From Strongyloides papillosus (Eukaryota; Nematoda; Chromadorea; Rhabditida; Strongyloididae): a stretch of 64,000 nucleotides of DNA. Below the pieces are notes generated by a model, which saw only the letters and a program-made list of their open reading frames with translations, was not told where the DNA came from and did not search any database. Below, in pieces: positions 17,453-63,932 of this stretch; position 1 is the stretch's first letter, and each line of letters begins with the position of its first letter. The stretch spans positions 682,001-746,000 of the forward strand of contig SRSI01000035.1 in NCBI GenBank assembly GCA_005656395.1, read 5' to 3'. The translations under genes and the position numbers were made by a program.

Positions 17453-18300
17453 CTTCCACACGGCTCTACACATACACAGAGCTTCACACACAATCCCGAC
17501 GTTGATGAAATAACCATCCTTACAACTCTTCGCACACACACAGAGTTATGGATGTAGTCCCGACGTTGATGAAAAGTAATCATCCAACAACTTTAGGCGC
17601 ATACAAAGTTACGGATACAATCCCGACGTTGATGAAAAACATCCAACAACTTTAAGAGCATACAAAGTTACGGATACAATCCCGACGTTGATGAAAAATA
17701 TCCAACAACTTTACGCGTGTACAAAGTTACGGATACATAGTTGAAGTAATAATTATATACACTTCTACAGCCGCCTATGTTCTTTAAACGAGAGTCAGCG
17801 CTTCAATTACGTAGTCATTAGACTTGTGCTTAGCACATTGAGATCAAACATACCAACAACCTCACTACACCTACTCTTCATCCAACATCTTGGATCAGCG
17901 ATGGTACCTCCAGGAACGTGAGAAAGGAAACTCCTGAAAACATTGCAAGAAAGTGAAACTAGTATTACTGAGAGAGAGAGTCCAACAGCTACGCCCGTCA
18001 AATATTACGGAAGAGTTTCTTACGCGAGAAAATAACTATCTGGCGACAATACCCTACACTTCCATCAACCAACAACATCAATGACTTGGAGAGTCATCAA
18101 CCTCAACAAATGATGTTATGGATGACAACTCCACACAGCTCTACACTTATACAGAGCTTCGTACACGATCCCGACGTTGACGAAACATACATCCTCACAA
18201 CTCTCTACACATACAGAGTTACGGATACAATCCCGACGTTGATGAAAGATAGACATCCAACAACTTTACAAATATACAAAGTTACGGATACGAGCGACAC
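17453..18300 (+). repeat. Tandem ~62-bp repeats in the Gag leader region
   Basis: A motif 'caatcccgacgttgatgaaa...atccaacaactttan..catacaaagttacggata' recurs at about 17490, 17550, 17617, 17677 and again at 18170 and 18230. The unit is about 62 bp with variable spacing. Superimposed is a larger duplication: 17453-18000 and 18120-18490 share the same order of motifs, including the stretch ending 'gggaactcctgaaaa'. The array encodes repeated IQ/VTDT-type peptides in the Gag frame. Confidence 0.7.
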
Positions 18301-18535
18301 ACTTCTACAGCCATATATGAACGAGAGTCAGCTTTTCGATTACATAGTTATCAAAACCACACTTAGTACATTAAGACCAGAATTACCGACAACCTTACTG
18401 CACCTACTTTCCATCCAACACCTTGGATTAGCTAGTGCACCACCACGAGCCCGAGAAAGGGAACTCCTGAAAATACTACAAGAGAATAGTACTGTGATTA
18501 CAAAAGGAGAGGAAGAAGGAAGGAACTACTCATGA
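18086..18535 (+). CDS. Gag-like protein remnant (149 codons) of the RT-less LTR element
   Basis: Open frame encoding about 149 residues. It contains two or three degenerate 20-residue repeats (motif TTL.(T/I)Y.VTDT), then a Leu/Pro-rich helical segment and a charged C-terminus (ARERELLKILQ). No zinc knuckle or known Gag domain is recognisable, so the assignment rests on position: after the 5' LTR and before the protease relic. The upstream duplicate at 17453-18000 is broken by stops. Whether this peptide is made, or the region only serves RNA packaging, is unknown. Confidence 0.45.
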   Translation: MESHQPQQMMLWMTTPHSSTLIQSFVHDPDVDETYILTTLYTYRVTDTIPTLMKDRHPTTLQIYKVTDTSDTLLQPYMNESQLFDYIVIKTTLSTLRPELPTTLLHLLSIQHLGLASAPPRARERELLKILQENSTVITKGEEEGRNYS

Positions 18536-18578
18536 CTCTAAGGCTGCCAATGTTCCGTTTCCAAGCACCAAGTTCATC

Positions 18579-19013
18579 ATGGGACACACTCTCATAGAAA
18601 GTGTAAGAACAACGGCACCCATTGATACCGGAATATACGTCACCCTCATATCTCCAACTCTTGCTGCGACGTTGAATTTCAAATCTCCAACTATCTCACG
18701 TACGATTTATTGCACAGGACAACGGAGAGAGATGAAGGGGATTCTACATCCTGTAACTATTGCGCTTTAAGGGCAAGAGAATGAATTCAAAGAAGGAGTG
18801 GTTATCAGTGACAAAGACTTCCAACACTACGAGGTGATCCTTGGTCCCCCTGCTTTATCAAAATCAAAGGTTATTATCAACACAGAAAAGGGAGAAATAG
18901 AGACTGGAGAATACTTAAAAATCACAAGCCAACTTCACACTTGGTGCACCAGTCTTAGAGAACCAAGAAGACCGGAAATAAAGGAGGAGTTGCAAAATCA
19001 CATCCCCAACTAG
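18579..19013 (+). pseudogene. Retroviral-type aspartic protease remnant
   Basis: Frame from 18579 gives APIDTGIYVTLISPTLA, where DTG followed by a hydrophobic strand is the retropepsin active-site signature. After a stop at 18768-18770 a second piece from 18798 reads ISDKDFQHYEVILGPPAL, matching the flap and 'ILG' region of gypsy proteases. The pieces are split by an in-frame stop, so no full protease is made from this copy. Confidence 0.65.
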
Positions 19014-19549
19014 AAACAAAATATCAAATCGACGTAGAAAAGGCATAAGAACTTGTTAATGCTGAATCAACAGCCCATAAATGTTACGGACGGAAGAAGC
19101 TTCTGCCTCATACACATCTTTCGCAGAAGAAATATGTCACAAACTCACGTTATTCTCGGAAAAGCTTGACCTACCTTCCACATTAAAAGGTAGATGCTTC
19201 AAAATTGAACGTGAAAGAATTCAACCCTGACTTTTGACCAATGAATAGCTGCACACGTGGAATACCATACGAAGGACAGCCTGTACACTCCATATTCTAC
19301 AGGATACCTCAACTCAACTGACAACCGAGCGAGCTGGAAGGTGAAGAATCTCAGCCAACAAAGAGAAGATGGAGAGAAACCCAAATACTTCACGACCTCT
19401 ACCTCCAAAAACGTCTACAAACGGAAGAACAAGACCAACAAACGACTTTCAAACACAGGGAGAGATAGGGAAGATACACAATAGTGAGAAATGGTGAAGA
19501 TGGTTTATGTATTCAGAAAGTAAGAATTTTAATTTCCGTTATTCTGGAA

Positions 19550-19960
19550 GATTAGGGGACAATACCACAAGTTATAACCGCGGCACATACTCATAACGAG
19601 CATTTTGGTAAAACAAGAACCCTCAGCTTCGTATCACAACGTGCATCCTGTAAAAACAAGTACACCAGAGTTCAGAAGTTTATAGAGACCTGTACACCAT
19701 GTCAAATGGTAAATCCTGCACACATGAATAAAACATTACGGAGCTTCTCACTCCATAAGGGCAAATAACCACAGAACAAATACATCACAGGCAGTTAAAA
19801 CAGTCCTCGACCATCACCATAACACACTTCACACGTCAACACTACATCATCCTGAAGGTAATCCACACAGTGAACGGATGATTCAGACAGTTTCAAAAAT
19901 ATTAACGAAACTCAACGTTGACAACAAGTCACATTAGAATCTAAACGTCGAGAAAAGTCA
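19550..19960 (+). pseudogene. Integrase remnant: HHCC zinc finger and catalytic-core tail
   Basis: Around 19570-19740 the plus strand reads a degenerate H2C2 zinc finger (HTHNEHFGK ... FIETCTPCQ), and around 19850-19935 an integrase-core tail (HPEGNPHSERMIQTVSKIL) with the E-R motif of the third catalytic residue. The first two catalytic Asp residues between them are missing, as about 110 bp replaces about 250 bp. Non-functional. Confidence 0.65.
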
Positions 19961-20263
19961 TTTATACCTAAAACGGTACCAGAGCCCAAGGACAAAATTG
20001 AACATATTATTACAGTGGACATCTCCAATCACCAATAATCCAAGACCTAGTGCTGAAGAAAAAGGAATTGAACCTTTAAACGGAGATTATATAGCCTCTG
20101 GTAGAAGGAAAACCTCCCGACACTAAAGCAACGGTACAAGCCTGGAAAACCTATTACTGGCGTTTCAAAGAACAGACATACACTTTAAATGTCTAATGTA
20201 CAACGTAATGGGAGATCGACTGAATACGTAGTCGAAGAATCTGAGGCTCCACATGCCCCCCCC

Positions 20264-38220: not shown

Positions 38221-40494
38221 TAGGAGTAATTGAAGCGGAGTCCATTTTTCATTTTCAATAGTTTTGTGAGATGTCATTCTAGTTTTAGCCAGAGCCATCT
38301 GTAGAGCTGTCGTTTTGGATACTTGTAAATGTTGGAGACGAGCGAGATTTGTTTTCAGTGTTTGTACTGCTCATTCTGCGGGTCCATTTGTTGCATGTTC
38401 GAATGGGACTGAAAAAAATATTCGAAACCCATGATTATCAGCGAAGTTTTGTAATTCTTGTGATTTAAATGATAGTTGGTTGTCAAAAACCATCTCTTTC
38501 CATAAATCAAACATTTGTGCAAGGTGAGTGAACATTGCTAAAACTGGTTTGACGCTCATATTAGGTACCCATTTTGCGAACAGGTAGTTTGAGTATGAAT
38601 CTTTGACAACTAAAAACCATTCACTATAATCATCACTAAAACCATAATCGACATGACATCTTTGAAAAGGTTTATCACAAGTAGGCCAGGATGTTCTTTC
38701 AGGTGTCTTTTTAATCTTATATTTTTTACAGGTGATACAAGAATCTAAACATTTTTGTATGATTGGCGTAATGTGTGGAGTGAAGAAACGTCTTTGTAAC
38801 CTATCAATGATTGCTTTTTCTCCAATATGATTGGTATAAAGTAGTTCTATTAATTTTGGATAGAATGAAGGAGGAATAGCAATCTTTCCACATTTAGTCA
38901 TCAATAAACCTGTTTCTTTACATGTTTTTAGTCTGTAGAAGTTTTTAAAACATGGTGATAATTCAGAGCTAGGAGATTTTTTGAATATGCCATCTTCCAA
39001 CCAAGTAAATACTGTTCTTAAAATTTTATTATTTATTTGTAGTTGTAGCCATTCGTTTTTTGATGGAAAACGATTTAACATTGTCGATTCTAGATTGCAT
39101 ATTATTGGACTATCAAATTCTTCTTGCAATTGTTCAGGTAATGGTCTAACACATCTTGATAACGCGTCTGCTAAGATGTTTTCTTTACCTCTCACGTATT
39201 TGAACGAAATATCATACGTCTGAATGAGAAGTGACCATTTCAGAAGTCTTAGGCTTAGATCGGACTTTTGAAACAGAACACTAAGCGCTGAATGATCTGA
39301 ATATACTATTATTGGGGCTCCGAATAATATTATTTTCAGATTTTCTAGTGCCGAAACAACTGCAAGTGATTCTAAATCAGTGGGAGGATAGTTTTTCTCA
39401 CTTCCTCGAAGACCACGGTTATAAAATGTTATTATTTTTTTATTTTGCATTAATACTGCTCCAATACCTGTTAAACTGGCATCTGTATATAATTCGAAAA
39501 GTGCCTCTCCAGATAGTGCTTTTTTTATGTCTGCAGCAGAGAGAATGGGAGCATTTAGTAATTCATTTTTTATTGTGACAAAATCATTTTCTAACTGTGG
39601 TGTCCAATTAAATTTTTCGTTTGATAGACTGTCATATAGTAACTTTGATAATGACGAAAATCTATAAATAAACCGTCTAAAATAGTTTGCCAGGCCTAAG
39701 AACGATTGTAATTGTTTCTTCGACCTAGGAGTAGGAAAATCCAAAGTCTTTTTGATCTTTATCGGATCTGCTGACAATCCTTTTTCTGAGATTATGAAAC
39801 CAAGGTATGGTGTCTCTGATTGGCATATTTTACATTTATTTTTGTTTATTTTCAGATTTGCTTTCTTAAGTCTGATAAAAACTTCATTTAAGAGAACCCA
39901 ATGTTCCTCCTCAGTTTCTGTAGCAATGAGTAATTCGTCCAAATAAATGAATATTTTATCTGGATCTAGATCTTCTAAAATGTCATTCATTATAGTCTGA
40001 AAAATGCTTGGACTTATAGACAGGCCAAAGGGAAGCACCGTGAACTGATAGTGTTTGTTGTCGAATGAAAACGCTGTCAGTTCTTGTGCTGAAGCATGTA
40101 ACGGTAACTGCCAATAACCTTTATGAAGGTCAATAGTTGTGAATCTTTTTTTTCCAGCCAATTTATATAATATGTTATCAATGTGAGGAAGAGGTCTAGC
40201 ATCTTGTTTGATATTTTCGTTTACAAGACGATAATCAATGCAGATTCTTAGGGATCCATCGGGTTTTACAATGGGTACTATTCTAGAGTTGTATGGACTT
40301 TTACTTTTAGTGATAATACCTTTAACATACATGTCTTTAATGTCATCTCTTAATATTTCTAATTTTGGTAGAGGTATTTGCCTTATTTTTGATTTAACCG
40401 GTGTGTTTGTCAGTAATTCAATTTTTATAGGTGTAATATTTTTTGAAGGAGTTAAATCTAAATCATTACCAATTATTTCTGTTATTTTTTTTTA
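38221..40494 (-). pseudogene. gypsy pol: reverse transcriptase, RNase H and integrase (degenerate)
   Basis: Main frame 40332-38371 is 653 codons, with an open upstream extension to about 40494. RT blocks are SLRICIDYRLVN, FTTIDLHKGYWQL, LPFGLSISPSIFQ and YLDELLIAT. The RT box reads YLDE instead of YxDD, so the second catalytic Asp is changed. RNase H shows LYTDASLTGIGAVL, YSDHSALSVLF and ENILADALSR. Integrase follows: zinc-finger Cys pair CLDSCITCKK, core Asp in CHVDYGFSD, core Asp in VFDNQLSF, and NGPAE with a TGA stop where an Arg codon is usual (CGA to TGA fits). The frame continues past the stop to 38221, where the transposon 35547-38217 cuts it. Upstream, a frameshift in an A-run near 40490 separates it from protease. 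Confidence 0.9.
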
Positions 40495-40594
40495 ATAAAT
40501 GTTCAGCTTTATCATGACTATTCAAATTATTAATTTGAAATTTCTTTTATAATTCTTTAAGTATAAAATCATGTGAAGTGAATAAATTTGTACC

Positions 40595-41910
40595 TTATAT
40601 GACTCCTGTATTTATATTTATATCAGCTATTATAAACGTTGTAGGAATTGTTGTATCTTTAAACGTGAGACTTAATTTGCATATACCTCGTACTGGTAAT
40701 AAATTTCCTTGAGCATCTTTAATTTTAATAAAATTTTTTTCTGATAAAAATTCTATGTGTTGAGATTGTTTTGCTATCTTTTTTAAAGTATCTGTTGCAA
40801 TTATTGAAATATTTGCTCCAGAATCAATTAATGCTTCAACTGAATAATTATTTAAAGAAATATTGATAGAAGCTACAGGGCCTTTAAGAGAGACAGGTGA
40901 ACAATCTTTAATTTCATTTATTTCACTATTTAACTCATTTATCAAAATTGAATTTTTATTATTAAATTTATCATTATTTTTGAATTTTTCTCTTTGTTGT
41001 TTTGGAACATCTGATTTGGTTTTTGTAGGTAATTGTGATTCCATTTCTTTAGTTAATGCAGATAGTAGGGTCTTTTGAAATTTTAGATATGCTTCGTGCG
41101 TATCTTCAGATTCCAGGTACTTTTCTGTTAACTCTGGGTGACGTTTGAGATGACGTACAGCTGACAAAACATATTTCATTTTTGATCTATAAGATAGTGT
41201 TTCTTTTAATTTTTCAAGTTCACGGATCCAAGCAGTAATTTTATTCATGTAAATGTTTGGAGTGTCTTTAGTAAACGGAGCTGCCGTTGCAAGTATCTGC
41301 TCCAGTTTAATTACACGTCTTTGAGGGGTCATGTTTGGGTCATAACGGGAAATTCATTCTTTAAGTACACCATCTAAAGTTACCATCTTTTCCGTTTCAA
41401 TGGCTTTATAAGCTATCAATGCAGGTCCTTCTAAGAACTCAGGAAACAATGCAATACCTTCTTGCTCTGTAAGTCCTGCAAACCTATTTTTAAATTTTTC
41501 TATAAAGGTAATAGGATTTTCTTTTTGTTGTAATATTGATAAAGGTGGTAATTTTGGTTTGGTAAAATTTAAATTTCCCATTGATGACGTTGTGTGAAGT
41601 GAATTTTCAGATACTGTTCTTATAGTTTCTATGAGCAATTGAGAAAACGTTTGTGGGGTGAACATATGTTCAGTTCCTCCTTTACTGTTATAACTGAGCT
41701 CATAGATGTTTTAAGATCAGCATATTCTTTTGCTAACATCATAGTCATTGCTTTGAATATAGTGACATTATCGTCAGGAAATATGGTTTTGATAGTTGAT
41801 AGAAGACTGTAAAGATCTAAATATCCTTTTGTATCTCTTTTTAGAGAATTTAGAGTCGGTGGAACCTCCATGTCAGCCATCAGCTTCATCAGCTTCTGGC
41901 TCCTGGTCAT
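40595..41910 (-). pseudogene. gypsy gag and protease (frameshifted); gag starts inside the LTR
   Basis: Three overlapping minus-strand frames: 41910-41629 (93 codons), 41665-41354 (103) and 41332-40595 (245). They represent one Gag-protease reading frame broken by frameshifts near 41640 and a stop near 41353. The Gag helical region contains ENPITFIEKFKNRFAGL, GIALFPEFLEGPAL and a second helical block (WIRELEKLKETLSYR). No zinc knuckle is visible. Protease carries ALIDSGANISIIATDTL, with DSG as active site. The ATG at 41910 is within the 5' LTR (41871-42056). The frame then crosses the LTR end and the primer-binding-site position, so the leader is coding. Confidence 0.8.
41853..41870 (-). other. 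Putative tRNA primer-binding site, inside the gag frame
   Basis: Directly after the LTR end (minus strand) the sequence is TGGAGGTTCCACCGACTC, beginning TGG, complementary to a tRNA 3' CCA end. It is translated as part of Gag. The priming tRNA is not identified. Confidence 0.5.
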
Positions 41911-50630: not shown

Positions 50631-50757
50631 CAAATTGAAGTACTAAATTTTGATATTCGGTACCTTTAAATTTATATATTTTAAGAATGTGACTTCGTAT
50701 GAAACTGATTTTTACCTGATTTTAATCTCATTTTCTTAAATATATATCTTAAATATA

Positions 50758-51656
50758 CAGGGTGGGCCAAAAGTCATGTCACATTTGAATGGAACAAATT
50801 ATAAATGTTATAACTTTTTTTGTAGGTGACATATTTAAATGATATTATACGCATTTTGTAGAGGATGATTTATAGAATAATATATCACAAGATCGTCCTC
50901 AAGAATGATCTTTACGAAAAGTTGTATTAAATTAAATAAAAATGTTTGTATTTTTGTTTATAAAGTACATCTTATAATATTTCAATTGATTAAAAAATAA
51001 ATGCTAGATGCTTAAAATGTTAGTTAAAAACATTTTTCTTCATAAAATATTTTGTTTATACAACATTAATTTCCTTCATATATTTCAAATATTTTTTATC
51101 GTTGTTACCTCTTTAAGAAAGTATTCTACTGTAGAACGGACAAAAATAGTTCGTGATTGCTACACCAACAGATGTTCAATCGTTACAACTCAAAATTATT
51201 CAAAACCTATTACAATGTGACCCAAGCTTCGTCAAGACATGCATTATTAAGTGTTGTAAATCATTTCAAAGAGTTAAATAAAACAATTTAATAAGAGTAA
51301 TAATTAATGTTTTATAATGAACAAGCTTGTGCAAGAAATTAAATGGTGATCATTTAAAAAATATCATTTTTCATACATAATTGTATGAAATATTGACTTA
51401 TTACGAATTGTATCCATGTGTTTTAAACTTAAAAATAAGTTTAAAATGAAAAAAATTAAGAAATACTTTTTTTAAATGTAAAATATTAAGAAATTAAAAA
51501 ACTTTTTTTAAGTTCATTCTTGAGAACGATCTTGTAATATATTATTCTCTAACAAATTCTCTACAAAATGTGTATAATACCATAAAAATATGTCGCCTAC
51601 AAAAAAAATTATAAAGTGTTTTATTTCAACTGTGTCGTGACTTTTGGCCCACCCTG
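50758..51656 (+). mobile_element. Mariner-like deletion derivative (MITE), 899 bp
   Basis: Ends CAGGGTGGGCCAAAAGTCA and inverse, flanked by TA (50756-50757, 51657-51658), with TIRs of about 190 bp. At 51115-51210 it keeps the start of a DUF4817-type domain (KYSTVERTKIVRDCYTN), and at about 51338-51375 the last residues of a transposase (GDHLKNIIFHT). These match the two ends of the transposase at 45022-46171. The catalytic core is deleted. Confidence 0.8.
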
Positions 51657-51659
51657 TAT

Positions 51660-52930
51660 ATTGAAAAAAACCAAAAAAATTAAAAATTATTTTTTTACTT
51701 AATTTTTTCCTCTTTGCGTATAGAGGATAATATGTGTCAATATAATATTAAGAATTTTCATATAAGCGGTATTTCTCTTAATTACAAATGAGTTTTAAAT
51801 TAATTTCTAAAAATCTTTAAATATTTAGTTACAAAGTCTTTGTGAATCATTGCATTGCTATTTATATTTATGTATTAGTTGTTTTTTACATTATATTTTA
51901 ATAATCTTTGTTATTTACCTCAATTAATAATTTGAATTTTAAAAATTTTCCTAATAAGCAAATTGGAAAAACGTCACTGGGCAAAAAATCTTGAAAATTT
52001 TCATAGGTTATTTCAGATTATCTCAAGAATGGATTCAGATAAATTAATCGTTAATATTTCAAAATGTGCGCATGAAGATTCCCTCGACCTGTTTTTGAGC
52101 TTTTGTCAATACCTGTTCGTTTTCTAAATTTTTTTTTAAAAAAGAATGAAGAAAAAATTTTTTTCAAAAAAAAATTGACTGAATATAATTAAGAATATCT
52201 CGATAACGGATGATTCGATAAATCTCATGTATATGCCATTCGATAGAGAATGTTTTACTGAAAAAATGTTGTAACTAATGTATTATGAAATTAAAAAGTT
52301 TTAGAATATTTATTACCGAGTAAACACACAATCTGATTTTTTTGGTATTTTTGCAGTCACTCGGGAAAAGAAAACTCATACTCAAACTTTATCAATTTTC
52401 TTGAAAATATACTTAAAATGTAGAGCAAAAAAATGCGCAAAATGGTTTTTTTTTGTTTTTCGAAAAATTTATTCTGTACTGAGATAATCCGTTTTGAAAT
52501 CCCAAATTTTTGTTGTAAAAAAGCATTCTTGAGAAATCTCGATATCTCGAGAATGGAAAAATAAAATCGGACAATTCTTTGCAGGCATGTTCTAGATCCA
52601 AAATTACATGTTTCTGCAAATTTTTAGATTAAAGCAACTGTTTTAAAGACTTCAGATAGGTGACCATATTTGCCTTTTTTCCATGTTTGGAAAAGTGTAA
52701 CTTAAGGATGAAACTTAAGAATGAAGTGATATTGTACAATTTGCTAAGAAATTAAATGTACTAAGTATATTTATCATCAAAACTTTAAAAATCGAAAATC
52801 ATTTTCAGACGAAATTTTCTCCTCTAATAGGTTGTTGATTGCTAGAAAATTTTTAAATTTCTAAACTTATTGTTGCTAGTAAATTGTTTAAATTGGTGAT
52901 TTTTATTTAAACATTTATAACTTCAAACAA
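51660..52930. repeat. AT-rich DNA with degenerate repeated phrases
   Basis: Variants of 'atctcgagaatggat..gataaat' recur around 52020, 52195 and 52545, suggesting an old tandem repeat of uncertain period. No ORF is supported; the 68-codon minus-strand frame 52413-52619 overlaps this repeat. Confidence 0.35.
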
Positions 52931-53520: not shown

Positions 53521-53697
53521 TTTAACAAAAATCATTGTCCTAAACAATTCACTGCCAACAATAAATATAAAAAATTCGTAATAATAATAACAAAAAGCCA
53601 AAAATTATTATTTAACCACACAAATCATTAATAATTAAAAATATTATTTTAGTATTTGTTTTCATATTAAGTTTAAATATGTAAAAGATATTGTTAA

Positions 53698-54135
53698 AGT
53701 AAAATTATTTAAGTTTTGTTGGTGCCTAGTTTCAGTTAAAAGATAGTATAGAAGGTTTAACACACACGCAAATTAGTATTTTATTATTATACACTTTTAC
53801 AATATAAAGACGAGCGCTAAAAATGGCCACCTAATGACAATTTGTTAATTATAAGATTCTTGGGAACTTACTTTTAGCTACACAAAGTACAATCTAAACA
53901 ATAATAAACAATATAATTAGAATCCTCTACGTCCCCTTGAATCTTACACTAAAATAAAAGGAATTAGGTTAGTATAATACTTAATACAATAAAAAAAACA
54001 ATGACATAGTGTTTTTACAAAATGACAACTATTTTGAAATCTTTTGTTTATATATTTAACTGTAAAGGATATTTTCTTTACAGGATCAAAACAAAGCCAA
54101 ATGAGAAGAAGAGTTAAGATTACTTCTCTTTTACT
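53698..54135 (-). repeat. 3' LTR (438 bp)
   Basis: Identical by eye to 59079-59516. The last codons and TAA stop of gag-pol lie in it (54135-54120). Confidence 0.9.
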
Positions 54136-57100
54136 CCTCCATCCTTGAAACTATTCTTCTCAATCCCATCTAACATAGCACGTTTACAGTTGCTAAAATG
54201 AACAATTTTCTTTTCTCCTTTATCATTAATAACAGTTATTCTATTTTCATCAACTTTTAATATTTTGTACGGACCACACCAGTTTAACGCTAACTTAGAT
54301 CCACATGTGAGATCAGGAAATTTTACATATACAAATTCATCAACTTTTAAATCATTTTCTCTATATTTTCCTTCTGGTCTACGGTCAATATTTCTATCTA
54401 TATTCCACTTAGCCTCTTTATAAGCTTCTTTAGCTACATCAATCAGCTCTACTAACTCCGGATTTTTATCAACACGATAATTCTTTTGAATGTTTAATAA
54501 GGTTTCAAGTCCAGTATTGGGGTGTCTCATGTAGTGCAAGTAGAAAGGTGTGAAACCATGACTTGAGCATACCGTCGTGTTATAATAATACGAAACTGCT
54601 TGTGTATAGATATCCCATCTTTCTCTCTTGGATTTACTCAACTTAGCAATAGTATTCTGTATCCACTTCAGAGCTCTTTCACAAATTGCATTACCTCTAC
54701 TATGATAAATTGTCGAGAATTCCTGTTTTATACCAATAGTTTTAAATACTTCTATCAATTTCTCATTTTTAAAATTTGGTCCATTATCTGTACGAATTGA
54801 CAATGGGTTTCCATGCTTCCATATTATCTCATCCATGATCTTTTGAAAGACTTCATCAAAACTATAAGATCTGCATGGTATGATTATTGTGAACCTTGTA
54901 AAGCTATCGATGAATACTAGCAGGTATTTATGACCATTTGATGACGTTGGAATTATTGGTCCACAGATATCTCCGGCAAGATTTTGAAATGGCATAGTAT
55001 ATTCAGTAACGTGTTGCATTTTAGGATGTAGTATATTTGGTGAATTTCTTTTCATACACTCGTCACATTTTAAAATATGCTTTTCAACTTTATCATGAAG
55101 TGATTTCATATACCCAACTTGATTAATTAAATGTTTAGTTTTGACTATTCCAAAATGACCTCTTAAATTATGTGCTAAACAAAGCATCTTATTATCCAGA
55201 CTTGACGGGATAATTCTCTTCAATTCCTGCCCTTCCTTGGGATGGTTTGTTTTGACATACACTACATCATCAATAACTACAACTTCTTTACCATCATAAT
55301 TTCCAATTTTTATACTTTCTTGAATGTGTTTGTCTTCTTTTTGATGTTTTATAAAATCAACATTTAAATTACCATTTAAATTTTCAACTAATTCCATAAG
55401 TGGGTGATTTGACTCATCATCACTCTCCACTGTTACCACCTTCTTCGGTCTTCCTCTTCTCCTTTTCTTCTGAGGGATTTCACTATTTTTACATGGTTTA
55501 ACATCATTTTCAGATCTTTCAGGCTTATTTTCTTGAGATTTCTTAGGTCTACCTCTCTTAGCTATTTTAACAACCTTTATACATTTCTTGGGCCTTCCTC
55601 TCGATCTTTTACCAGGATTAGCATTACCCTTTACAACAACATTTACTTCAACATTACACTCATTATAGTGCGAATCATACAAAATACTATCATCATCACT
55701 ATCTTCGTCAATATTATATACATTCATATCAATAGCACTTAGAAAATCAGCAACATTTACACATTTAATATTTGTTTCAACATCTGATCCGTCTTCATCT
55801 CCACTAAAATTGTTATCTTTTGGATCATAAACTTCTCTTGACAAATCATCCGATACAACATTTGAAGAACCTTTTACATAATGTACTTTAAAATCAAATC
55901 CAGCAAGATCATTTGTGAGTTCAAGATAACGATTGTCAACAGAATTCTTAAAAATACCAATAAGTGGCAAATGATCTGTACGAATATGGATTCTACTTCC
56001 TCCAAAATAATGTTTAAAATGACGGAAACAACGACTTATTGCCATCAGTTCTTTATAAGTTATACATCTTTTCCTTTTTGTAGGAGTTAATCTCTTGCTA
56101 TAAAATGATATCGGGACTTCTTTTCCATTCCTCATCTGGGATAACACTCCTCCTACAGAATGATCACTAGAATCTGTAGTAAGTATAAAATCTTCTTCTA
56201 GTACAGGATGGTGACAGAACTTCGGACTTGACATAGCTTGAATTAATTTATGATAAGATTGTTTTGCTACATCATTCCAAACTAATTTACGATATTTCTT
56301 CTTAAGTAGTTCATCCAAATGATATGTTAAGTCTGAAAAATTCTCTATGTAGTTTCTATAATAATTTGCTGATGCAATTAAAGATTTCAAAGATTTCTTG
56401 GATTCCGGGAAAGGTCTCTTCAAGAATGCTTTAATATTACTATCATGAGGAACACTTCCATCAACATTGATATGGAATCCTAAATACTTAATAGATTTTC
56501 CAAAGAAACTGCATTTTTCAAATGATATGCGAAAATCAGCATCTCTAATTCTCAATAAAACTTCTTTTACTTTACTAATATGGAATTCTAGACTTCCAGC
56601 TGTATGAACAACAATGTCATCAATATAGTTGGTGCAGTATTCTTCTAGACCATGAAGAACTTCCTCTCCTATTCTTTGGTATTCACTACTACTGTTAATA
56701 AATCCTTGGACCATTCGTCTAAATCTATATGTACCAAATGGAGTTTTGACGGCTAAATAAACTTGACTTTCTTCCGGTACTCCAACTTGGAAATATGCAT
56801 TGTTACAATCTAACTTAGTAAAATATGAACAATTCCTCATCTTTAAAATGGCATTAGGTACTAAAGGTGGAGAATAGTAAATTGGTTGAACAATTGCATT
56901 AATAGATCTCATATCTCCTATTATTCTTCTTCTACCATCAGATTTCTTCAACATAAATATCGGCATTGCATAAGGACTTGGTTTTCTTACAATTACGCCA
57001 CTAGCTTCCAAGTTATCAAGATACTCCTTCAAAATAGGTTTATCAACTTCTTGAATTGGAATTGTTGCTGGTCTTGGAAATTCACAATTATCTTTTAAAA

Positions 57101-59048
57101 CAATATTATGGCATTTAATTTTACCACTTCCAAGATCATACTCGTTTTTTGCAATGATATCATCAAATTCAACTTTTAACTTTACAACTTCTTCATGACT
57201 TTTATCAACTTCATCAATAATAGATACATTAATTTCAGCAACATTAGATTCATCAGGCTTATTAAATTCACGAAATACAATTTTTTCATTTTTATCATCG
57301 AACGTTACCACTAGTTGTTTAAAGACATTCCAGCCCAGTATTCCTTCGTATGCTCGGTTGGTGAAGTCAATATCACATAAATACGCAAAACAATTAATAA
57401 TTTTATCACCAATATTAAAATTGACTTCCTCTTTTGTTTTATATGAGGTTATTGCTCCATGATCATTCAACGTTCTTATTTTTAACTTATTTTTTTCATC
57501 TATTGTACATTCAGATCTGAATCTCATCGGTAATATCGTAATCTCAGATCCTGTATCTACAAGCATTTTTATTGAATCACTACCATTGACTTTTACTTGA
57601 ATTATGGGGAGGTCACTTCCAGGCTTCTCCAGGTTCACTTCTCCTCTTACAGAATCAGCAGAATTAGATTCTTTAACTTCCCCTTTTACTGTCTTATTAA
57701 CTTTTTCACTCTGATTTACCTCCTTCAGTGATTTATCTTTCTTTTTCTTCAGGCGACAATCGACCTCTTTGTGTCCTCTTTTCTTACAGAAATTACACTC
57801 TCCCTGGAATTTATCTCGTGCACCTTCAGATCTCTTGGACTTTGAACTGGCGTTAATGTCGTCCCAATAATCCTTAGCAACTAAAATTGTGTGGTCGAAA
57901 GGTTCATCTTCAGGTCTGTCATGTTTTATCAAACTCCTCATCAATCCTGCAGGTAGACATTCGGCAAGATGATTTCTTTTTCTTCTTAGACGCTCACGGT
58001 GACTTTCACTAGAATACACAACATCTATCAACCGTGATATTTCGGCTCCAACAGTTACAAGTTCAGAGCTCCTATTCAATTTTAGATTCATCAGTTTTTG
58101 TCTTGCTGCTGCTAAACTCTCCTCGCCCTTGTAATTCTCCTTCAGATATCTTATTAATTCTCCATAATTACTCTTGATATATGGTTGCTTTTGGATGTCA
58201 CTAGCAACTCTTCCCTTTAAATGAAGCTTCAGCATGTGCAATTTTAAATGTCTTGGAGTTCCATTGAGAATCAACATACTTTCGAATCTCTCCAGAAATA
58301 GTGAAAAGTCTTCTTTAGGATCGTAGGCATCAATTTTAACATTACAACTTGGTACGACATTGTAAACTGGAGCAGCATATGGAGGATATTGAGGTTGGTA
58401 GTTTACATTGTATTGACTAAAATTACTAAATTCATCACTATATCCTTCACGATTAGAATATCGTCTCTCATCATCTTCATCAGGTATATTTATTGGGTAA
58501 TATTTCCCAAACTTAGACTCTTTCTTCTTCAAATTCTGATTATCATTAACTTTGGACTTTACTCTTTCACCTCTTTGTGAGTTAACATCATCATTTACAG
58601 ACATAACATTAGGTATATACATTGGGAATCTTGGGATTGTCGGTCTTGGTACCATGTCTTCTTTAAAATAGATCCTTTCAAATCCCGCAAAAACTTGAGC
58701 ATTCATATGATAATCTCTTCTACTATTTGGTTGACCAGTCATCACAACATTTTGGGGTAGAGGGGATACATGACTTAAAGGTTGAGTCATCACTACACAG
58801 TCATCATCATTGGTACTACGTCGTCCAATGGATTCATCATATTTCACATCATCATTTCCAGAACTGTAAACTCCTGGATTATCAACATCATCAATTACAT
58901 CATCAGAAGTGCTACTCTCTTCACCTCTGGCTGTACGTCTAGCTCTTCGGATTATTTCATCATATTCAACAGATTTGGTTATCCGGTTACCATCTCTCAT
59001 TGAAGTTCTTATCGGCTTCAACTCCCGTTTACTTCTCGTTACTACCAT
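54120..59048 (-). CDS. Gag-Pol polyprotein with three AT-hooks between RNase H and integrase
   Basis: 1642 codons in one frame with no frameshift. Order, approximate residues: basic and Asp-rich N-terminus (1-220); Gag helical domain (230-400); zinc knuckle CNFCKKRGHKEVDC (~417-430); protease MLVDTGSEITILP (~493-505); RT with FTKLDCNNAYFQV and YIDDIVVHT (~807); RNase H with LTTDSSDHSVGGV (~954) and RTDHLPLIG (~1023); acidic linker; three AT-hooks with RGRPKK cores (~1147, 1162, 1194); integrase zinc finger (HNLRGHFG, CDECMKRN, ~1287-1331); core with GDICGP (~1360), RTDNGPNF (~1418) and CERALKW (~1453); GPY module NWCGPYKIL (~1588). Catalytic residues all look intact. AT-hooks bind the minor groove of AT-rich DNA, so here they may tether the integration complex (inference). 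The ATG at 59048 is 31 nt after the LTR. The stop is inside the 3' LTR. Confidence 0.93.
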   Translation of the reverse strand: MVVTRSKRELKPIRTSMRDGNRITKSVEYDEIIRRARRTARGEESSTSDDVIDDVDNPGVYSSGNDDVKYDESIGRRSTNDDDCVVMTQPLSHVSPLPQNVVMTGQPNSRRDYHMNAQVFAGFERIYFKEDMVPRPTIPRFPMYIPNVMSVNDDVNSQRGERVKSKVNDNQNLKKKESKFGKYYPINIPDEDDERRYSNREGYSDEFSNFSQYNVNYQPQYPPYAAPVYNVVPSCNVKIDAYDPKEDFSLFLERFESMLILNGTPRHLKLHMLKLHLKGRVASDIQKQPYIKSNYGELIRYLKENYKGEESLAAARQKLMNLKLNRSSELVTVGAEISRLIDVVYSSESHRERLRRKRNHLAECLPAGLMRSLIKHDRPEDEPFDHTILVAKDYWDDINASSKSKRSEGARDKFQGECNFCKKRGHKEVDCRLKKKKDKSLKEVNQSEKVNKTVKGEVKESNSADSVRGEVNLEKPGSDLPIIQVKVNGSDSIKMLVDTGSEITILPMRFRSECTIDEKNKLKIRTLNDHGAITSYKTKEEVNFNIGDKIINCFAYLCDIDFTNRAYEGILGWNVFKQLVVTFDDKNEKIVFREFNKPDESNVAEINVSIIDEVDKSHEEVVKLKVEFDDIIAKNEYDLGSGKIKCHNIVLKDNCEFPRPATIPIQEVDKPILKEYLDNLEASGVIVRKPSPYAMPIFMLKKSDGRRRIIGDMRSINAIVQPIYYSPPLVPNAILKMRNCSYFTKLDCNNAYFQVGVPEESQVYLAVKTPFGTYRFRRMVQGFINSSSEYQRIGEEVLHGLEEYCTNYIDDIVVHTAGSLEFHISKVKEVLLRIRDADFRISFEKCSFFGKSIKYLGFHINVDGSVPHDSNIKAFLKRPFPESKKSLKSLIASANYYRNYIENFSDLTYHLDELLKKKYRKLVWNDVAKQSYHKLIQAMSSPKFCHHPVLEEDFILTTDSSDHSVGGVLSQMRNGKEVPISFYSKRLTPTKRKRCITYKELMAISRCFRHFKHYFGGSRIHIRTDHLPLIGIFKNSVDNRYLELTNDLAGFDFKVHYVKGSSNVVSDDLSREVYDPKDNNFSGDEDGSDVETNIKCVNVADFLSAIDMNVYNIDEDSDDDSILYDSHYNECNVEVNVVVKGNANPGKRSRGRPKKCIKVVKIAKRGRPKKSQENKPERSENDVKPCKNSEIPQKKRRRGRPKKVVTVESDDESNHPLMELVENLNGNLNVDFIKHQKEDKHIQESIKIGNYDGKEVVVIDDVVYVKTNHPKEGQELKRIIPSSLDNKMLCLAHNLRGHFGIVKTKHLINQVGYMKSLHDKVEKHILKCDECMKRNSPNILHPKMQHVTEYTMPFQNLAGDICGPIIPTSSNGHKYLLVFIDSFTRFTIIIPCRSYSFDEVFQKIMDEIIWKHGNPLSIRTDNGPNFKNEKLIEVFKTIGIKQEFSTIYHSRGNAICERALKWIQNTIAKLSKSKRERWDIYTQAVSYYYNTTVCSSHGFTPFYLHYMRHPNTGLETLLNIQKNYRVDKNPELVELIDVAKEAYKEAKWNIDRNIDRRPEGKYRENDLKVDEFVYVKFPDLTCGSKLALNWCGPYKILKVDENRITVINDKGEKKIVHFSNCKRAMLDGIEKNSFKDGGVKEK
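55441..55610 (-). other. Three AT-hook motifs in the Pol linker
   Basis: RSRGRPKK, AKRGRPKK and RRRGRPKK within about 55 residues, each matching the AT-hook core (R/K)GRP flanked by basic residues. They follow an acidic Asp/Glu/Asn-rich linker and precede the integrase zinc finger. Confidence 0.9.
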
Positions 59049-59060
59049 CTTTTACTTTTT

Positions 59061-59080
59061 ACACCTCCAACTATGACCAG
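59061..59080 (-). other. Possible primer-binding site
   Basis: At the LTR end the minus strand reads TGGTCATAGTTGGAGGTG, beginning TGG as expected for tRNA priming. The first T overlaps the LTR. No tRNA match can be named. Confidence 0.35.
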
Positions 59081-59516
59081 TAAAATTATTTAAGTTTTGT
59101 TGGTGCCTAGTTTCAGTTAAAAGATAGTATAGAAGGTTTAACACACACGCAAATTAGTATTTTATTATTATACACTTTTACAATATAAAGACGAGCGCTA
59201 AAAATGGCCACCTAATGACAATTTGTTAATTATAAGATTCTTGGGAACTTACTTTTAGCTACACAAAGTACAATCTAAACAATAATAAACAATATAATTA
59301 GAATCCTCTACGTCCCCTTGAATCTTACACTAAAATAAAAGGAATTAGGTTAGTATAATACTTAATACAATAAAAAAAACAATGACATAGTGTTTTTACA
59401 AAATGACAACTATTTTGAAATCTTTTGTTTATATATTTAACTGTAAAGGATATTTTCTTTACAGGATCAAAACAAAGCCAAATGAGAAGAAGAGTTAAGA
59501 TTACTTCTCTTTTACT
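59079..59516 (-). repeat. 5' LTR (438 bp)
   Basis: Identical by eye to 53698-54135. TTAA duplication outside (59517-59520). Confidence 0.9.
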
Positions 59517-59975
59517 TTAACTATAAATAAAAATCCATATAATATCATAACTTTTCATAGATTTAATTTTCTAAATAGAACCACTAAAGTCATACAAAAA
59601 CTTTTCGGCCTCCAGAAGAGTGTAATTTTATAATAAAAAATGTAATTATTAATAACTCAAACTATTAAAACTTATTAATAAAAATATTTTCGTATGTTCA
59701 GAATTGCTTTTTATAAAAGCATTTATAATCTTACATAAAGTTAAATTCTAATTTTATATTTAAAAAAGTATTGTAGAAGACAATCTATGTTTTAAAATAA
59801 CAATAATATAGTAAGAAATTAAAACTTATTTCAAAAACTACTTTATTATTGCTTCCATTTTTAAGTACGATATAGTTGCGATAAAATTAGTCGCAATTCA
59901 AGAAAATTCAAATTTAAATAGGTGGGAAAAATTCATTACATTTTACGCAAAAATGCTCCCCACTTTTTTTTGTTT

Positions 59976-63148: not shown

Positions 63149-63932
63149 ATTAATTTACTTAAAATAGTACTATACGCATTAGATAGATATTTATTTGCTC
63201 TATCAAAATAATGGTATTTTATTTTAATGAATTATTTTGTCGAAATATTATTGTTAAAAATTATCAAAAACTTGCCTTATACTACGGTTATTGTTTGTAT
63301 TACAAGTTTTAATACAGCTTTTGAGATTCTATGTTCATGACACTTTGGAATTGATATAACACACAAAAAAATGGGACACACATTTGCGTAAAATGTAATG
63401 AATTTTTCCCACCTATTAAAATTTGAATTTTCTTGATTTGCGACTAATTTTATCGCAATTATATCGTACTTAAAATTTAAAGCAATAATTTAGTAGTTAT
63501 TAAAATTGGTTTCAATTTTTTACATATTATCGTTATTTTAAAACATAGATTGTCTTCTACAATATTTTTTTAAATATAAGATTAGAATTTAACTTTATGT
63601 AAGATTATAAATGCTTTTATAAAAAACAATTCTGGGCACACCAGAATATTTAAATTAATAAGTTTTAATAGTTTGATATATTATAAATTATACTTTTTAT
63701 TATGAAATTACACCCTTCTGAAGGCCGAAAAGTTTTTGTATGACTTTAATGGTTCTATTTAGAAAATTAAATGTATGAAAAGATATGATATTATATGGAT
63801 TTTTATCTATAGTTAAAAATATCTTTTACATATTTAAACTTAATATGAAAACAAATACTAAAATAATATTTTTAATTATTAATGCTTTGTGTGGTTAAAT
63901 AATAATTTATGGCTTTTTGTTATTATTATTAC

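Follow-up and report, generated by a model that had tools for sequence, protein, structure and literature searches.

We describe a cluster of three AT-hooks placed next to the integrase of a Ty3/gypsy retrotransposon in the parasitic nematode Strongyloides papillosus. The element lies in a stretch of 64,000 nucleotides (contig SRSI01000035.1, positions 682,001 to 746,000), hereafter the window, whose own numbering is used for all coordinates. It occupies 53698-59516 on the minus strand, and its gag-pol polyprotein carries the hooks in the linker between RNase H and integrase. The arm formed by this linker is kept in a second full copy and in most of the closest relatives, and the sites at which the family inserted are AT-richer than the DNA around them. 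We propose that the three hooks serve as a cis-encoded, LEDGF-like DNA tether on the integrase, acting in target tethering, and we put the probability of this reading at about 0.5.

AT-hooks between RNase H and integrase

The hooks and the linker that holds them are located as follows, with amino acids (aa) numbered along the stop-to-stop frame.

55584..55601, minus strand: AT-hook 1, RGRPKK, aa 1151-1156
55539..55556, minus strand: AT-hook 2, RGRPKK, aa 1166-1171
55440..55457, minus strand: AT-hook 3, RGRPKK, aa 1199-1204
55377..55835, minus strand: RNase H-integrase linker, aa 1073-1225, with an acidic first half and a basic second half that contains the hooks; mostly predicted at low confidence (disordered)

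The three hooks span 54 residues and lie between RNase H and integrase, because the RNase H end motif VVSDDLSR (aa 1065-1072) precedes them and the histidine pair of the H2C2 zinc finger (aa 1294 and 1299) comes after. The first-pass annotation of the window, made from the nucleotide sequence, had described these motifs in this order; the description proved right and its open reading frame (ORF) coordinates exact. The Pfam AT_hook model (PF02178) scored 21.9 bits against a cut-off of 17.4, and the R-G-R-P core expected of an AT-hook is present. When the 153-aa linker was shuffled 200,000 times, one RGRPKK arose in 4 shuffles and two arose in none. The charge of the linker is unevenly distributed, with 19 D/E against 3 K/R in aa 1073-1147 and 8 D/E against 25 K/R in aa 1148-1212. 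All DNA differences among the three hooks are synonymous, and a very recent DNA duplication was rejected as their origin because the hook codons do differ. Capture of a host gene was likewise rejected on the Pfam results, AT_hook being the only linker match above the Pfam cut-offs and a BNIP2 match staying below.

An AlphaFold2 model of the linker and integrase (583 aa, 22 alignment rows) reached a mean pLDDT (predicted local distance difference test) of 65.7 and a pTM (predicted template modelling score) of 0.47. Residues 47-155 of this piece fall below a pLDDT of 50 and include all three hooks (residues 91-144), while confident structure begins near residue 171, with a folded region ahead of the zinc finger. 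The hooks are thereby predicted to sit on a disordered arm before the folded integrase. The best Foldseek matches were integrase chains of prototype foamy virus (PFV) and Ty3, with E-values of 3e-24 and 3.5e-20, respectively. By sequence, the integrase piece aligns with PFV integrase from residue 43 of both, and if this alignment were extended to residue 1, the hooks would fall just upstream of the start of PFV integrase.

The features of the element as a whole, including its long terminal repeats (LTRs), are listed below.

53698..59516, minus strand: whole Ty3/gypsy element, LTR to LTR, bounded by maximal direct repeats at 53698-54135 and 59079-59516
59079..59516, minus strand: 5' LTR, 438 bp, AGTAAAA...TTTTACT, 438/438 identical with the other LTR
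53698..54135, minus strand: 3' LTR, containing the last ORF codons and the stop (54120-54122)
59517..59520, no strand: target-site duplication TTAA, upstream of the 5' LTR
53694..53697, no strand: target-site duplication TTAA, downstream of the 3' LTR
54120..59048, minus strand: single gag-pol ORF, ATG to stop
57756..57797, minus strand: Gag CCHC zinc knuckle, read as a motif
57543..57560, minus strand: aspartic protease active site VDTGSE, read as a motif; Pfam gag-asp_proteas above cut-off in 55872-57641
56613..56630, minus strand: reverse transcriptase (RT) active site NYIDDI, read as a motif; Pfam RVT_1, E 3e-26
55836..56183, minus strand: RNase H, from LTTDSSDH to VVSDDLSR, read as motifs; Pfam RT_RNaseH
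55041..55211, minus strand: integrase H2C2 zinc-binding domain; Pfam Integrase_H2C2, E 1.4e-11, residues 56-112 of piece 54123-55376
54678..54971, minus strand: integrase catalytic core, D1361, D1422 and E1458; Pfam rve, E 5e-14
54258..54278, minus strand: GPY-like motif CGPYKIL in the C-terminal part of the integrase, which we take to be the motif named GPY/F; motif only

This is a young and intact Ty3/gypsy gag-pol element. The order of protease, RT, RNase H and integrase within one pol identifies it as a Ty3/gypsy LTR retrotransposon, as do the pair of LTRs, identical at 438/438 positions, and the short TTAA duplication. The open frame runs from 54120 to 59051 on the minus strand without an internal stop; its first ATG, at 59048, gives 1642 aa from Met, and the CCHC knuckle, aspartic protease, RT, RNase H, H2C2 zinc finger and integrase core are all encoded in this one frame. 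The H, H, C and C of the zinc finger and the D, D and E of the core are invariant in the 22 alignment rows, and the integrase residues are intact. No chromodomain was matched in 54123-55376 at Pfam E-values up to 1, which does not support a chromovirus assignment, and no env gene fits behind pol because the stop codon lies inside the 3' LTR, which sets the element apart from errantivirus-like or retrovirus-like gypsy elements. The element is inserted inside a repeat that is present a second time, inverted, at about 63360-63932; its two flanks match this repeat at 97.5% (120 bp) and 90% (465 bp). In protein searches, the closest pol protein was from Strongyloides papillosus, with 96% identity, and the nearest named relatives belong to Strongyloides and Parastrongyloides, in agreement with the first-pass annotation, which had pointed to nematodes.

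Conservation and distribution of the hooks

The genome search covered an assembly of 58.2 Mb in 79 contigs and found a second full copy on contig C60, with a 1643-aa open frame, a linker 98% and an integrase 99% identical, all three hooks, and LTRs that agree at 98.4% of 445 aligned columns. Between the two full copies, aa 726-1643 show 49 synonymous and 12 amino-acid-changing base differences. Outside this assembly, three of the four closest relatives keep hooks: P0001 (S. papillosus) has three, P0002 (Parastrongyloides) has two, and P0003 (S. stercoralis) has one together with SGRPKG. The hook-bearing stretch is otherwise 43-51% identical in P0002-P0004. The first-pass annotation had named a recent accident as the outcome that other copies lacking hooks would indicate; an accident of one copy is rejected, given the hooks of the second full copy and of these relatives.

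To describe the distribution within the S. papillosus genome, 30 integrase loci were taken by similarity to the window integrase and assigned to 19 families. Two families known from fragments lacking RNase H were excluded from the count, one without a hook (L015) and one with a single hook ahead of the zinc finger (L025). Among the 17 families counted, hooks occur in the linker of seven, in the C-terminal tail of three and in neither in seven. Counted by residues, there are 10 hooks in 2023 aa of linker and 5 in 1598 aa of C-terminal tail, so that all 15 are confined to the two tails flanking the integrase (3621 aa), with none in the other 10811 aa (0 in 6601 aa of RT and RNase H; 0 in 4210 aa of zinc finger and core). 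Linkers with hooks tended to be long in these families. A second sample consisted of 18 pieces hand-picked from 150 listed zinc-finger places and was scored for linkers; four of the 18 (L115, L116, L121 and L122) lacked a readable zinc-finger frame, and a hook was found in 2 of the 14 readable linkers, both from one family.

Of the 53 rows of a tree, 18 have linker hooks, and 16 of these belong to a single 22-row group (support 83/97, not starred); the linker-hook state requires at least 7 changes over the tree. C-terminal hooks occur in 9 of the 43 rows scored for them and require at least 8 changes. Rows were partly picked for hooks (loci L034-L059 and several other rows), so these counts are not frequencies; the tree was built with linker columns not removed by hand and with no named reference elements. 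A genome-wide Pfam AT_hook scan listed at least 26 places, a lower bound because the window's own hooks are absent from the list, and 16 of the 26 share an open frame with an integrase zinc-finger or core motif. A DNA pattern scan, with 187 matches against 141 in the reversed control, was too noisy for a count.

The AT-hook module also occurs at the other end of the integrase, since other LTR families of the same genome carry one to three AT-hooks in the C-terminal tail behind the integrase core (L021/L031, L030, L032, L038/L039, L045 and L050/L051). The window itself holds a second, broken gypsy element at 38371-41353 on the minus strand, in which RT, RNase H and integrase share a frame of 706 aa. 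Another frame of this element, of 252 aa, has a weak protease match that stays below the Pfam cut-offs, and the RNase H-integrase linker contains no AT-hook.

Outside the genome, linker hooks look concentrated in Strongyloididae. Of the 12 Strongyloididae proteins in which a zinc finger could be read, all of them from searches with hook-bearing queries, 11 carry such hooks, against 1 of 101 proteins in a first set from other organisms (P0039, with two hooks) and 1 of 38 in a second set (P0141). Across the 153 proteins, 83 did not match the regular expression used for the zinc finger. C-terminal hooks were found in 4 of the 101 proteins of the first set and in 26 of the 38 of the second, the latter figure being biased to hooks by a hook-bearing query and word seeding, and the first set may be biased too. 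In P0106, one of the 101, a hook-like match precedes RT; for 3 of the 38 the position of the hooks could not be assigned. A second three-hook family yielded two relatives, in a search possibly biased towards hook-bearing proteins. The metagenomic gypsy protein P0141 combines an AT-hook in its RNase H-integrase linker with PF00385 in its precomputed domain list, which we take to be the chromodomain. The layout is not unique to the window element, as linker and C-terminal hooks are present in other families and proteins; its earlier description as unusual was too strong for Strongyloididae, where linker hooks are common, and hooks also occur C-terminally in other gypsy elements.

Insertion sites and competing explanations

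AT-hooks bind A/T runs by placing their GRP core in the minor groove. In the mechanism that we propose, the three hooks would form a flexible, basic DNA-binding arm directly ahead of the N-terminal domains of the integrase. Once the polyprotein is cut, this arm would most likely remain attached to the integrase, where it would hold the minor groove of A/T runs and keep the integration complex at AT-rich DNA. Insertion would thereby be biased to AT-rich, perhaps nucleosome-poor DNA, the arm acting in cis as LEDGF/p75 does in trans for lentiviral integrase.

The LTR search for the three-hook family gave 19 matches, of which partial or diverged ones were excluded from the site sets. An 8-site set is made up of the two full copies and six solo LTRs, one of them interrupted, and a 10-site set adds two older interrupted copies covered at both ends (C25:684174-685787 and C19:437683-441117). 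Exact 4-bp duplications flank 8 of 8 and 8 of 10 sites, respectively, the two older copies showing GTAT/GTTT and GTTG/TTGT. In the 8-site set, GC content is 14.7% within 60 bp compared with 25.0% at 400-1500 bp and is lower near the insertion at every site (paired test, one-sided p=0.0039, the minimum possible for eight). The two older copies have 23.3 and 17.5% GC within 60 bp, and with them the values become 15.8% against 26.1% further out, lower at 10 of 10 sites (one-sided p=0.001); their addition makes the paired test stronger and the between-family test weaker.

We compared these sites with those of a two-hook family, from which one site was dropped as a copy of another site's flanks, and of a hookless family (6 sites from 9 matches). 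Ordered by hook number (3, 2 and 0), GC within 60 bp is 14.7% (8 sites), 19.3% (10 sites covered on both sides; 21.0% when three further 3' flanks are included) and 24.9% (6 sites), a trend that fits the tether idea. The 8-site set differs from the hookless family at 60 bp (p=0.016 one-sided, 0.045 two-sided) and at 100 bp (p=0.012). Relative to random points of the window, GC is lower at three-hook sites (p=1.6e-5 at 60 bp) and at the 13 two-hook sites at 100 bp (p=0.03) and is not lower at hookless sites (p=0.68); this background was drawn from one window, and the paired tests are preferable. The LTR search for a second hookless family gave 6 matches, few of them close.

Several observations weigh against a tether that directs insertion. 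Between-family differences in GC are weak: at 20 bp the 8-site set is not separated from the hookless family (p=0.10), and two-hook against hookless gives p=0.07. The 13 two-hook sites do not differ from random window points at 15-60 bp (p of 0.15 or more), another three-hook family shows 25% and 12% GC in the 60 bp of two of its 3' flanks, and the hook-number trend rests on three families. Most sites are solo LTRs, so part of the bias may come from the survival of insertions where genes are few. The insertion-site comparison suggested by the first-pass annotation gave a partly positive answer: all 10 sites have a higher AT content than the DNA around them, and they differ from hookless sites with p=0.036 one-sided and 0.072 two-sided (10 sites, 60 bp), while the difference from the two-hook family is not significant (p=0.08 with 8 sites, 0.15 with 10). 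On the protein side, the linker as a whole is under weak constraint, given 5 synonymous and 4 amino-acid-changing differences between the two full copies, and the fourth close relative, P0004 (62% identical), has no hook by pattern and RGRLKK at the hook place. The Foldseek agreement holds for single domains (in 3l2q_B, for instance, over 160 columns with a root-mean-square deviation (rmsd) of 2.0), because whole-chain TM-scores are 0.3-0.5 with an rmsd near 18, and the arm could remain on RNase H after cleavage of the polyprotein.

The hooks might instead be mainly signals for nuclear import or retention of the integration complex, with AT-rich sites following from chromatin access, which we consider unlikely. 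Clusters of K/R of this kind can serve as nuclear signals, and the second half of the linker has an excess of basic residues (25 K/R vs 8 D/E). Insertion can also do without hooks, since the hookless family is present in several copies with exact 4-bp duplications at 5 of 6 sites. Basic residues alone would suffice for such a signal, yet many families and species have retained the G-R-P core itself, and only synonymous changes separate the three hooks.

A role for the arm in assembly, and not in target choice, by binding AT-rich cDNA or RNA of the element itself (at LTR ends, in packaging or in reverse transcription), is rather improbable. In its favour, the LTR ends AGTAAAA...TTTTACT are A/T-rich, and the two neighbours of the arm in the polyprotein, RNase H and integrase, both act on cDNA. 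This explanation nevertheless leaves the AT-rich insertion sites of the three-hook family unaccounted for, and a very similar LTR end, ATTTTTACT, is present in the hookless family.

Similarly poor prospects attach to a tolerated spacer, a drifting disordered linker that gains basic repeats while AT-rich sites come from a preference common to gypsy integrases or from the survival of insertions outside genes: hook number varies from 0 to 3 among relatives, with RGRLKK in one, hooked linkers tend to be long, and the site sample is small with weak between-family tests, but two hooks never arose in the 200,000 linker shuffles, hooks are limited to the two integrase tails over 17 families, and 11 of the 12 readable Strongyloididae proteins (from hook-bearing queries) carry them.

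Two further features of the window lie apart from the element. Local GC reaches 41% at 18001-20000, with a strong AT skew of 0.27, against 25.4% for the window, and a frame of 187 aa at 17972-18535 gave no Pfam hit with an E-value of 0.01 or less. Inverted repeats of 41 bp at 50749-50789 and 51625-51665, 835 bp apart and with a GGGTGGGCCAAAAGTCATG-like core, resemble the ends of a small mariner-type element.

Relation to known integrase targeting systems

With other Ty3/gypsy elements, such as yeast Ty3 and the animal gypsy groups, the window element shares the protease-RT-RNase H-integrase order, the H2C2 finger, the D,D-35-E core, LTRs and a short target-site duplication; it differs in that its folded integrase is preceded by a long stretch, predicted at low confidence, that contains three AT-hooks. 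In chromoviruses, as is proposed here, a chromatin- or DNA-reading module adjoins the integrase. The window element differs in having no Pfam chromodomain match and in that its module lies ahead of the integrase and not behind it. To our knowledge, the targeting modules that gypsy elements encode for their integrases lie at the C-terminus and are chiefly chromodomains. PFV integrase is the best solved match by both sequence and Foldseek E-value, and we know of no AT-hooks ahead of its zinc finger. Sequence and Foldseek comparisons also pair the integrase piece with the Ty3 chain 7q5b; Ty3 itself targets a TFIIIB-bound tRNA gene (title of 7q5b).

AT-hooks join integrase to DNA in two known systems, LEDGF/p75 and the fusion P5-IN, which is a precedent for the tether reading. 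LEDGF/p75 is supplied in trans by the host and P5-IN is engineered, whereas the hooks of the window element are part of its own polyprotein. AT-hooks reach lentiviral integrase via LEDGF/p75 (PMC4176367); Sso7d at the integrase N-terminus improves solubility and concerted integration, and a 20-residue peptide from the LEDGF AT-hook region fused to HIV-1 integrase gave results highly similar to the Sso7d fusion (PMC11054761). In P5-IN, the LEDGF AT-hook peptide replaces the Sso7d that was fused to the integrase N-terminus (PMC11054761, PMC4176367), and a structure of the P5-IN intasome is available in the PDB (8w2r). A literature search pairing AT-hook with retrotransposon and integrase terms, mostly among freely available papers, returned no mention of AT-hooks in a gypsy polyprotein in the text covered, so an earlier description is possible; the matches dealt with retroviral integration and LEDGF, with Sleeping Beauty or with unrelated subjects.

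A broader and more tentative proposal, which we hold to be somewhat doubtful, is that gypsy elements repeatedly evolve AT-hook arms at either end of the integrase, N-terminal in one group from Strongyloididae and C-terminal in other lineages, as a targeting module independent of chromodomains. Hook number would then tune the AT-richness of the sites, and the arms would be a natural, cis-encoded counterpart of LEDGF.

Families with 0, 1, 2 and 3 hooks coexist in one genome, so that the effect of a tether on site choice would be directly countable. If the tether reading is true, the window element would offer a natural counterpart to the engineered P5-IN fusion, and a groove-reading arm on the other side of the integrase, kept across a family of parasitic nematodes, would add a class to the targeting modules of these elements.

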